Shown here: positions 34,814-60,496 of the stretch, piece by piece | Layout: each line of letters begins with the position of its first letter | How positions within the stretch are numbered: the stretch's first letter is position 1 | Origin: Pedobacter ginsenosidimutans | GTDB taxonomy: Bacteria; Bacteroidota; Bacteroidia; Sphingobacteriales; Sphingobacteriaceae | Reading direction: 5' to 3' | DNA: 64,000 nucleotides | Assembly: GCF_001442625.1 (NCBI RefSeq) | Contig: NZ_LMZQ01000005.1 | Location: 310,001 to 374,000, forward strand | Position numbers and translations under genes: made by a program | Notes under the pieces: generated by a model | The model's database searches: none | Told to the model about the DNA's origin: nothing | Seen by the model: only the letters and a program-made list of their open reading frames with translations

Positions 34814-34891
34814 TGTCAGTCTGAGCTTGTCGAAGACTTTTCAATAGTTGAAAACAAATAATATTTGTCCTTCGACAGGCTCAGGATGACA
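34814..34891. repeat. REPIN-like pair of palindromic half elements
   Basis: The half TGTCAGTCTGAGCTTGTCGAAGAC (34814-34837) is followed 28 bases later by the inverse half TGTCCTTCGACAGGCTCAGGATGACA (34866-34891). The same two-half arrangement occurs at 59168-59272. The poly-T after the second half may let it work as a terminator for the upstream gene. Confidence 0.7.
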
Positions 34892-57420: not shown

Positions 57421-57561
57421 TGCACAACTAACCCGAAACCTGATCTTAAAATCAAATAATCCTAAAAATTCTAATCATTCATCCCATTTTTTAGCTCATC
57501 CATCACATTTTAAATATAGATGTAAATTCTCTTCGTAAAATTGTGGTATAAACTAAAACAA

Positions 57562-59100
57562 ATGGTAATTCTATCAGGTAACCCATCTACAATAAAAACC
57601 AAAAGCATCAACCAGCTTGAATTTTGGATTTCTACAACACTATATGTGCTGGCCCTAATTGGTATCTGCTCATCCACAATCTATAACTCGGGCAATTCTT
57701 ATCGTTTTGAAGAAAGCGGTATTGATTACAGTGTAATGGCAAACTTCTTTATTCCAGAATTATTTAAGATCACCAGTTTATATATCAGCTTTTTATTGTT
57801 CAATTTTTGCCTCATGCCCCAACTTGCAAATAAGAATAACATAACACTTAATCTTATTCTTACGGTTTTGGTTACAGCGTTCTCTGTAGTTGCGTGGATG
57901 GTTTACAATACCTATTCTCAAGCATACCGATTGGTTGAATATGACAACATCGATAACGCTTACGGGATCTTTTTTGGCGAAGCTTTTACTTATATTTTCT
58001 TTTTATATCTACTCTTTAATGCGTATGCCTATTTTAATGAGCGGGGCTTAGAATTACTAAAAAGAATCCCGGTATTAAAAAACTACCATAATAACATCGT
58101 TCCAGAACTCTTTGTAAGTACCAAAATCTGGCTGATTTCGCTCATGATTTTTGCAGCCGTACTTTCGGTAAGAATAGATTACGAAATACTGATCGTTTGG
58201 GTAATTGTACCACCGGTAAATATCTTTCTGGCTTTTTGCTCTATTTATTACGTTATTCCAAACCTCAGAAAGGATTTTAAAGGTTTTGGCCGGTATTTTT
58301 GGGGAAATGTAGGTTTAACCATTATCCTCTCACTCCTGCTGTTGATTGTCCTTATCCCTTTTATGCGCAATGGTGCTGTAGTGCCGATTACCTTAATTTT
58401 AAACGCCATATGCTTAATCTGCATTACTACGCCATCTGCATGGTATATTTATAAACATAAATTTGAAAAACAAAGCGAAATCCAGATGCTCAAAACGGAG
58501 TTGGGCAAATCGGATGCGAACCTTAATTTCTTAAAATCGCAGATCAATCCACACTTCTTGTTTAATGCTTTAAATACCTTATTCGGAACAGCTTTGCAGG
58601 AAAATGCAGAAAGGACGGGCGAAGGGATCCAGAAACTGGGTGATATGATGCGTTTTATGCTCCATGAAAATACCCAGGATAAAATTTCGTTAACCCGCGA
58701 GGTAGAATACCTGAACAATTATATTGATTTGCAAAAGCTCCGTACCTCCCGCTCTGCAGATATCAGAATTGATACACATATTGAAGAACAGTTGAATAAC
58801 CTGCAGATTACACCAATGCTATTGATTCCGTTTATCGAAAATGCATTTAAACATGGTATTAGTTTGCAACAGCCTTCGTATATTAAAATTACCTTGCAAA
58901 CCAAAGAAAAAACTTTGTATTTTGATGTAAGCAACAGCATTTATATTAAGGCAGATAATGATCCCGAGAAATTAAAAAGTGGCATCGGACTAGAAAATGT
59001 TAAACAACGTTTATCATTGCTTTATTACGGAAAACATGAGTTAATTATCCGTGAAAGTGCTAATGAATTTTTTGTTCATTTAACTTTGCAATTGGATTAG
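57562..59100 (+). CDS. LytS-type sensor histidine kinase
   Basis: The 512-residue protein starts at the ATG at 57562 (MVILSGNPSTIKTKSINQLE); the TTG 21 bases earlier is also open. About eight hydrophobic segments fill the first 330 residues. The conserved His is in SQINPHFLFNALNTLF, and the ATP-binding region has LIPFIENAFKHG and SGIGLENVKQRL, typical of the His_kinase family (PF06580) that pairs with LytTR regulators. Its regulator is at 59686, 585 bases away, with a nuclease gene between them. The signal is unknown. Confidence 0.92.
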   Translation: MVILSGNPSTIKTKSINQLEFWISTTLYVLALIGICSSTIYNSGNSYRFEESGIDYSVMANFFIPELFKITSLYISFLLFNFCLMPQLANKNNITLNLILTVLVTAFSVVAWMVYNTYSQAYRLVEYDNIDNAYGIFFGEAFTYIFFLYLLFNAYAYFNERGLELLKRIPVLKNYHNNIVPELFVSTKIWLISLMIFAAVLSVRIDYEILIVWVIVPPVNIFLAFCSIYYVIPNLRKDFKGFGRYFWGNVGLTIILSLLLLIVLIPFMRNGAVVPITLILNAICLICITTPSAWYIYKHKFEKQSEIQMLKTELGKSDANLNFLKSQINPHFLFNALNTLFGTALQENAERTGEGIQKLGDMMRFMLHENTQDKISLTREVEYLNNYIDLQKLRTSRSADIRIDTHIEEQLNNLQITPMLLIPFIENAFKHGISLQQPSYIKITLQTKEKTLYFDVSNSIYIKADNDPEKLKSGIGLENVKQRLSLLYYGKHELIIRESANEFFVHLTLQLD

Positions 59101-59167
59101 TCCTTCGACTTTGCTTATGGCAACCCATAATTTGTCATGTCAGTATAAATGATAATTTATCTGCGAC

Positions 59168-59272
59168 TGTCACCCTGAGCGTAGTCGAAGGGTAGTAGAT
59201 CAAAAATATCTGTTGGGATTAATCTTGATTTTATTATATTTAAAATGTCCTTCGACTCCGCTCAGGATGACA
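59168..59272. repeat. REPIN-like palindrome pair upstream of the GIY-YIG gene
   Basis: The half TGTCACCCTGAGCGTAGTCGAAGG (59168-59191, extending to 59194) and the inverse half TGTCCTTCGACTCCGCTCAGGATGACA (59246-59272) are near-perfect inverse complements (24 of 26 aligned bases), separated by 51 bases. A third, cut half, TCCTTCGACTT, follows the kinase stop at 59101. Confidence 0.8.
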
Positions 59273-59323
59273 ACACGCATTAGTATAAAGCGAAGATGAA
59301 GTACCGACAAGTAAAATAAAAAT

Positions 59324-59638
59324 ATGAAAACCTACACTGTTTATATTCTAAAATGTGCTGATAATTCATATTACACAGGGGTTACCAACGATATAGACAG
59401 AAGGCTTTATGAGCATGAAAATGCAATAAACGTTAATTGCTATACTGCAGAAAGAAGACCATTGGCGTTAGTGTTTTGTGAGCACTTTGAAGATATAAAC
59501 GATGCGATAAGTTTCGAAAAACAAGTTAAAGGCTGGTCGAGAAAAAAGAAAGAGGCCATTATAAACGATAACTGGGATAAACTTAAAGCGTTATCCATTT
59601 GTAAAAACATTACAAGCCATACAAATTTCACAAAGTAA
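59324..59638 (+). CDS. GIY-YIG endonuclease-domain protein
   Basis: The 104-residue protein has the GIY-YIG catalytic core: VYILKCADNSYYTGVTND near the N terminus (the GIY-YIG equivalent here reads VYI and YYTG), the catalytic Arg in RRLYEHE, and a later Glu/Lys region EKQVKGWSRKKKEAI. This is a nuclease of the small YhbQ-like type with no second domain. It is inserted between the two-component kinase and regulator genes and is flanked on both sides by palindromic half elements. Confidence 0.85.
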   Translation: MKTYTVYILKCADNSYYTGVTNDIDRRLYEHENAINVNCYTAERRPLALVFCEHFEDINDAISFEKQVKGWSRKKKEAIINDNWDKLKALSICKNITSHTNFTK

Positions 59639-59640
59639 TA

Positions 59641-59668
59641 GGTTTCGACTACGTTCCGCCTGACATCC
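59641..59668. repeat. Half palindrome downstream of the GIY-YIG gene
   Basis: GGTTTCGACTACGTTCCGCCTGACATCC begins 3 bases after the nuclease stop. Its inverse complement, TGTCAGGCGGAACGTAGTCG followed by AAACC, resembles the half at 59168 (TGTCACCCTGAGCGTAGTCG then AAGG), with a changed middle. So the nuclease gene is bracketed by elements of one family. Confidence 0.6.
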
Positions 59669-59685
59669 AACAAGACAAATAAAAA

Positions 59686-60360
59686 ATGATTGCCATTGCT
59701 ATAGATGATGAACCAATTGCATTAGAGATCATAAAATCTCACGCCTCAAAAGTTCCATTTGTAACATTGCAACAAACTTTTACCGATGCCTTTGCAGCCA
59801 TCAGCTATCTTCAGCAGAACAAGGTTGATTTAATTTTTCTGGATATCAAAATGCCAGATATCAGTGGAATTGATTTTTTAAAGAGTTTGAGCAAACCACC
59901 AATGGTTATTTTTACAACAGCCTATACAGAGCATGCTGTGCAGAGTTTTGAACTCGATGCTGTAGATTATCTGCTAAAACCTTTTTCACTTTCGCGTTTT
60001 TTAAAGGCTTGCAATAAAGCCCAGGAACTCTTTAACCTGCGCAATCAGAAGCAGGAAACAAAAACAGAATATATTTTCGTAAAAGATGGTTACGAGCAAA
60101 TTAAGGTAGAGTTGGACGAAATTCTTTATGTAGAAGCCTCAGGCAATTACACCCAGATACAACTAAAAGATAAACTTTTAAGCTCAAGGATTACCATTAA
60201 CGATTTGGCCGAACTATTGCCAAAAGCAGATTTTATCCGTTGTCACCGGGCATTTATTGTAGCTAAAAATAAAATATCCAAATTTGACCGCAGCCAGATT
60301 TGGATTGGAGAAAAAATTATTCCTATAGGTGCAACTTATACCAGTATTAAACTTACTTAA
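59686..60360 (+). CDS. LytTR-type response regulator
   Basis: The 224-residue protein has a receiver domain (acidic residues Asp 7/Asp 8, phospho-acceptor Asp 53 in LIFLDIKMPD, and KPF at about 107) and a LytTR DNA-binding domain (YIFVKDGYEQIKVELDEILYVEASGNYTQI ... IRCHRAFIVAK). It pairs with the LytS-like kinase at 57562 and would bind direct repeats in target promoters. The start at 59686 is the ATG that opens MIAIAIDDEP. Confidence 0.93.
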   Translation: MIAIAIDDEPIALEIIKSHASKVPFVTLQQTFTDAFAAISYLQQNKVDLIFLDIKMPDISGIDFLKSLSKPPMVIFTTAYTEHAVQSFELDAVDYLLKPFSLSRFLKACNKAQELFNLRNQKQETKTEYIFVKDGYEQIKVELDEILYVEASGNYTQIQLKDKLLSSRITINDLAELLPKADFIRCHRAFIVAKNKISKFDRSQIWIGEKIIPIGATYTSIKLT

Positions 60361-60406: not shown

Positions 60407-60496
60407 TGTCATGTTGAGCTTGTCGAAACACCTTAAAGAGTATTTAAGCAGGTCCGTCGACAAGCTCTCCGTAGGAGTCCTTTGGACAGGATGACA
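60407..60496. repeat. REPIN-like palindrome pair, third locus
   Basis: The half TGTCATGTTGAGCTTGTCGAAA (60407-60428) and an inverse half with an insertion, GTCCGTCGACAAGCTC ... GACAGGATGACA (60452-60496), are the same type as at 34814 and 59168. The insertion between the two parts contains CTCCGTAGGAGTCC, a nested hairpin. Confidence 0.6.

Follow-up and report, generated by a model that had tools for sequence, protein, structure and literature searches.

What is a small nuclease gene, hemmed in by palindromes, doing between the two genes of a bacterial two-component system? The question is raised by the window discussed here, a 64-kb stretch of a 6.5-Mb draft Pedobacter genome, in which a LytS-type histidine kinase gene (57541-59100, plus strand; PF06580, E 1e-23) and a LytTR response regulator gene (59686-60360, plus strand; PF00072 and PF04397) are separated by 585 bases. 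A first-pass annotation of this DNA held that such genes are usually adjacent, and comparison of the gap in 30 congeners bears this out, with a nearly empty gap of only 21-71 bp in nine of them. It also placed a 104-residue GIY-YIG nuclease gene in the gap, which we recover as an open reading frame at 59324-59638 (plus strand; PF01541, E 3e-18), here called type A1. The answer that we favour, with a probability of about 0.72, is that this small nuclease and the TGTCA-tagged palindromes around it are sequence-specific partners, the gene and its outward-facing halves making up a "master" locus of which the gene-less palindrome pairs (REPINs) would be targets or derivatives.

Upstream of the nuclease gene lies a full REPIN (59168-59272) made of two inverted, TGTCA-tagged halves with their tags outward (59168-59191 and 59249-59272), both without a mismatch to the half consensus TGTCAYCCTGAGCGNAGTCGAAGG and folding together into one long hairpin (z -5.9). 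Two bases past the nuclease stop codon begins a single half (59641-59668, minus strand, tag outward) that is decayed, with 3 mismatches in its 16-base core, and of which relatives keep better-preserved equivalents in our comparison of the locus among congeners. The flanking halves of the first-pass annotation are therefore real, exact upstream and decayed downstream, and to these can be added another decayed half that it overlooked, immediately 3' of the LytS stop (59102-59125, minus strand; 6 mismatches in 24) and intact at the same place in congeners G026 and G047. An Rfam search of the LytS-LytTR locus gave no match. The protein itself is a single-domain GIY-YIG protein of about 100 residues with its catalytic residues intact; 56 relatives share Y7, Y17, R27, H31, K66, K69, R73, K76 and W84 without exception, and E65 almost without exception. 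Its AlphaFold2 model (pLDDT 85, confident up to residue 93) has UPF0213 and Slx1 as nearest folds, and in sequence it is 42% identical to the UPF0213 protein BH0048 and 34% to a Neisseria gonorrhoeae homologue, to which a B-type nuclease of the same Pedobacter genome is 48% identical. We also considered a role in a defence system and found no support for it, as PADLOC and NCBIfam assigned the window protein to no family and PHROGs gave no match.

How common are these palindromes? Within the window there are seven matches to the 13-mer of this palindrome type against 0.6 expected, a number reached in 0 of 100 shuffles. Two nuclease-free REPINs of the type found at the nuclease locus lie at 60407-60496, with two ends of 2 mismatches each, and at 34814-34891. 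Both had been noticed earlier as palindromes lacking a nuclease gene; they are real, yet imperfect, their ends departing from the 13-mer at up to 2 positions. The genome-wide count of palindrome halves and GIY-YIG genes that the first-pass annotation had proposed as a check gave 156 near-exact halves of the 13-mer TGTCATCCTGAGC (one mismatch allowed) versus 1 for the reversed control, and seven GIY-YIG homologues. All genome-wide palindrome counts are pattern searches, and they distinguish four types, R1, R2, R3 and R4 (TGTCATCCTGAGC, CGTCATTGCGAGG, CGTCATTCCCGYG and CGTCAYCCTGAAT, respectively), R1 being the type of the window. Most of the palindromes are intergenic, and an unpaired CGTC or TGTC tag stands at one end; the stems of R3 and R4 are 8 bp long with a loop of 4-5 bases, while in the R1 half the stem is shorter, imperfect and weak alone.

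Five of the seven homologues are short and akin to the window gene, and all five bear tagged palindromes, of four different types: TGTCATCCTGAGC..GTCGAAGG at L001 and L002, GTCATTTCGAGCGGAGCG..GAGAAATC at L003, CGTCACCCTGAATTTATTTCAGGGTC at L004 and TGTCATCCTGAGTGCAACGAAGGATC at L005. A lack of palindromes at GIY-YIG genes elsewhere in the genome, which had been named in advance as grounds for dropping the link, is thus not what we see at genes of the window type. The two other short genes (L006 and L007) adjoin tRNA genes, belong to a different GIY-YIG branch and show little or no palindrome signal, with no palindromes on both sides. At L005 (1360-1660) the gene is without its 5' part and a palindrome half now occupies that place; a nuclease gene missing its 5' part beside palindrome sequence was seen at three separate loci, the others being L016 (G051) and L015 (G048).

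The association can be followed beyond this genome with 94 nuclease genes collected from the genus Pedobacter and a palindrome signature in which [ACT]GTCA precedes a hairpin, complemented by the R1 half pattern, which was added since the generic hairpin signature alone missed imperfect R1 stems and had no match at 12 of the 94 genes. A tagged palindrome lies within 300 bp of 90 of these genes, and on both sides in 72, and palindrome density is 6.4/kb near the genes versus 0.8/kb far from them, whereas by the same measure 20 RAYT-like transposase genes reach 0.5/kb and a longer GIY-YIG paralogue (16 copies) 1.0/kb; the enrichment beside nuclease genes that the first-pass annotation wished to see examined is therefore present, with little or none at either control. 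Among named Bacteroidota (including Pedobacter, Mucilaginibacter, Sphingobacterium, Chitinophaga, Roseivirga, Cyclobacteriaceae and Prevotella) tagged palindromes occur at 78 of 80 nuclease loci. One might take such palindromes for plain transcription terminators, or for intergenic clutter, that lie near a nuclease gene by chance, given their mostly intergenic position and the strong hairpin of the full REPIN, but we consider this hardly credible, as it is refuted by a palindrome density some 7 to 13 times higher at the nuclease gene than at distances of at least 0.7 kb, with negative controls, and by sequence-specific pairing at unrelated loci. Two further observations were made on the way: the RAYT-like transposase genes of Pedobacter (L281-L300) have quite different palindromes of their own, such as ACTCGTTTCTAACGAGCGCA and GTCGGGATTTGCAATCCCGAC, and at L073 (G047:C1:2463500-2467500) a B-type nuclease gene and its palindromes form a tandem duplication, with near-identical copies about 760 bp apart.

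If the nuclease is a specific partner rather than a general neighbour, its type should go with that of the palindrome, and this is what is found. Among non-syntenic loci, the more alike two nucleases are, the more alike their palindromes tend to be (Mantel 0.27 on identities, reached by 0 of 1000 permutations), and of 50 cases open to the test, 49 had a more similar palindrome beside a related nuclease of another genome than beside unrelated nucleases of the same genome. The copy numbers of the four palindrome types also track the presence of the corresponding nuclease clade once general abundance is taken out (double-centred association, reached in 1 of 5000 permutations, a test that carries no correction for the species tree). 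The clear single-nuclease cases are G021, where an R2-clade nuclease accompanies 352 copies of R2 and 2-7 of the other types, and G044, where an R4-clade nuclease accompanies 47 copies of R4 and 0-4 of the others; the counter-cases are G062 and G076, with 260 and 167 copies of R2 and an R2-clade nuclease found in neither. It is against these numbers that a purely local role should be judged, in which the nuclease would use the flanking halves as operators or processing sites to control its own gene only, the genome copies being by-products; the halves at a nuclease gene are indeed better conserved than the spacer, but type-specific copy number throughout the genome and many nuclease-free copies are left unexplained, and we regard this reading as improbable.

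One correlation we do not count as evidence. Across genomes, nuclease presence and palindrome number are associated (Spearman 0.79), and the median of R2 is 1 in nuclease-less species versus 80.5; however, Y1 transposases follow the same pattern (45/3/2/29), nuclease-less species being also without them, and the comparison is confounded. Could RAYT or IS200-type Y1 transposases then be mobilizing the palindromes, with the nuclease gene as a passenger? The set of Y1-bearing genomes is nearly identical to the set with nucleases and palindromes, as this reading would have it, but the Y1 genes are at background density (0.5/kb), the RAYT-like ones bear other palindromes, and an earlier survey detected no tyrosine transposase gene flanked by CGTC repeats (Di Nocera et al., 2013; PMC3733652), which makes it very improbable in our view. 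Likewise, flanking by the palindromes, as expected of the HUH tyrosine transposase gene of a REPtron, is not above background at the Y1_Tnp genes of the genus. The argument for the nuclease rests on the local controls and the type-specific tests, and from these comparisons of sequences we consider a specific partnership between it and these palindromes very probable.

Whether the pairing amounts to mobilization is a separate matter, on which the history of the loci has something to say. Apart from the nearly empty gaps, the LytS-LytTR interval of the 30 congeners holds another REPIN type without a nuclease in seven or more, and otherwise R1 palindromes together with the nuclease, in some genomes as an array or with a 5'-truncated gene, the 5' part being gone in G051 and G048. 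In G047 (L150) about seven head-to-tail R1 REPINs precede the nuclease gene and more follow it. Of 17 loci compared, 14 have the A2 gene next to one and the same fabG-like gene, and the half that flanks the A2 gene keeps 0.95 identity over 14 species while the nearby spacer falls to about 0.5. The nuclease genes are thus old and mostly inherited in place, and many are decaying; broken ones are found in G036, G024, L004 and L005, so that the system is dispensable. The nuclease-free REPINs are less settled, that at 60407-60496 being missing from the orthologous position of G057 and G009, and that at 34814-34891 being present in G057 and absent from G040, G042 and G009. At both, we found neither clean insertion with target duplication nor precise excision, only messy gain or loss among close relatives.

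The earlier proposal of a REP/RAYT-like pairing with a GIY-YIG enzyme therefore fares differently in its two parts: the pairing passes the local, non-syntenic, copy-number and half-conservation tests, whereas the claim that the enzyme "mobilises" the palindromes has behind it differing occupancy among close relatives, yet no clean insertion with a target duplication. A different reading is that nuclease and repeats are a fixed host function controlling DNA uptake or recombination, the repeats having spread otherwise. It is consistent with the same sites being kept over many species (A2 at the fabG-like gene, A1 at LytS-LytTR), with the conserved halves and with the missing transposition footprint at the two nuclease-free REPINs, and we take it seriously as a possibility, if not the one on which we would wager, since four palindrome types and several nuclease types coexisting in one genome, frequent decay, arrays and tandem copies look more like the turnover of elements than like a single host function. 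The pairing is old, largely inherited in place and subject to frequent gene decay, and so may also serve the host, for example by controlling recombination or DNA uptake.

Under the partnership that we prefer, the gene with its outward-tagged halves would be the "master" locus and the gene-less REPINs targets or non-autonomous derivatives. Most probably, once a palindrome turns single-stranded on the lagging strand, during recombination or in incoming DNA, the nuclease would bind and nick it at its hairpin and 5' GTCA tag, and cleavage could drive gain, loss and amplification of palindromes via repair or template switching; in this sense the nuclease may mobilize the repeats. Our tree joins types B, B2 and C to Neisseria and alphaproteobacterial proteins, and A1 and A2, including the window gene, to UPF0213 (99/99, from 99 columns only and with midpoint rooting), which places palindrome pairing on both sides of the split. 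It is tempting, though we think it rather doubtful, to extend the idea to GIY-YIG nucleases of two deep branches as the long-missing mobilizers of the whole CGTC REP superfamily, working via single-strand breaks and not HUH transposition, with gene and outward halves as the autonomous unit and REPINs as the non-autonomous one.

The association does extend through Bacteroidota, Alphaproteobacteria, Neisseria (dRS3), Aeromonas and Planktothrix. Tagged palindromes flank homologues in Azospirillum lipoferum, Sinorhizobium meliloti, Rhizobium, Shinella, Sphingobium, Aeromonas, Planktothrix and Spirosoma, and the N. gonorrhoeae homologue sits among dRS3 repeats (CGTCATTCCCGCGCAGGCGGGAATC); the inspected flanks of a Rhizobium phage relative and of Rhizobium tumorigenes held no clear tagged palindromes. 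Two of the settings are worth recording: on Planktothrix agardhii plasmid p1 (L242, 2486-2770) the palindrome-flanked gene has an MmeI-type restriction gene on one side and DISARM drmA on the other, and on Azospirillum lipoferum plasmid AZO_p3 (L238, 2501-2794) gene and CGTC palindromes are inside the suf operon, between sufB and sufC. As no dedicated enzyme had been reported in 2013 for CGTC-type REPs, dRS3 included, their origin and spread were left open, and a consistent, type-specific nuclease partner provides a concrete candidate enzyme together with many natural pairs, several of them within one genome, enabling cross-cleavage comparisons with built-in controls. Enzymes that turned out to cut single-stranded hairpins, each with a specificity of its own, would be useful reagents; should the nucleases drive the spread of repeats, bacteria would have a second, non-HUH route of palindromic repeat amplification.

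How does this compare with what is already known? UPF0213 (YhbQ-like; PDB 1zg2 and 1ywl) is nearest to the window protein in sequence and fold, and we know of no palindrome pairing for it. A homing endonuclease element has one insertion site and an empty site in relatives, and empty LytS-LytTR gaps exist, but the sequence associated genome-wide here is the palindrome, not the empty site. Our literature search, within a limited article collection, found no GIY-YIG nuclease paired with REPs, and the first-pass annotation knew of no description of such a pairing and saw in it a candidate for a new type of element; that was too strong, for the GIY-YIG nuclease Ssn (site-specific single-stranded nuclease), reportedly the subject of a 2025 article in Nature Communications, is said to act on the dRS3/NTS repeats of Neisseria, among which we also see a homologue, to cut the repeat only as single-stranded DNA and to control DNA uptake or recombination there. 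The pairing is thus not wholly new, Ssn/NTS being the nearest known system and, as in Pedobacter, a small single-domain GIY-YIG protein beside high-copy palindromes. It differs in that the window protein falls on the UPF0213 side in our tree, several nuclease/palindrome pairs share one Pedobacter genome and the palindrome sequences are others; the UPF0213-side branch, multiple pairs per genome, element-like bracketing and the link to CGTC repeats as a whole exceed what we can attribute to Ssn.

The CGTC REP superfamily, whose members have an 8-9 bp stem, a 4-5 base loop and a CGTC/TGTC tag and include dRS3 and Bacteroidetes repeats (PMC3733652), resembles the Pedobacter palindromes in its tag, its short stem starting with A, its short tail, its inverted pairs and its intergenic location, although the stem is longer or imperfect in some Pedobacter types. 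Several species with palindrome-flanked homologues, as well as dRS3, are named in the paper describing the superfamily, whose repeats "apparently lack a dedicated transposase" (Di Nocera et al., 2013; PMC3733652), whereas here a GIY-YIG gene is the consistent neighbour. REP/RAYT systems (REPtrons) are alike in that short palindromes in inverted pairs bracket the gene of a cognate enzyme that is inherited in place, with several types per genome, and RAYTs are described as old, inherited in place and decaying, much as the Pedobacter nuclease genes are; but the enzyme is an HUH tyrosine transposase there and a GIY-YIG nuclease here, and the tag is GTAG there and [CT]GTC here.
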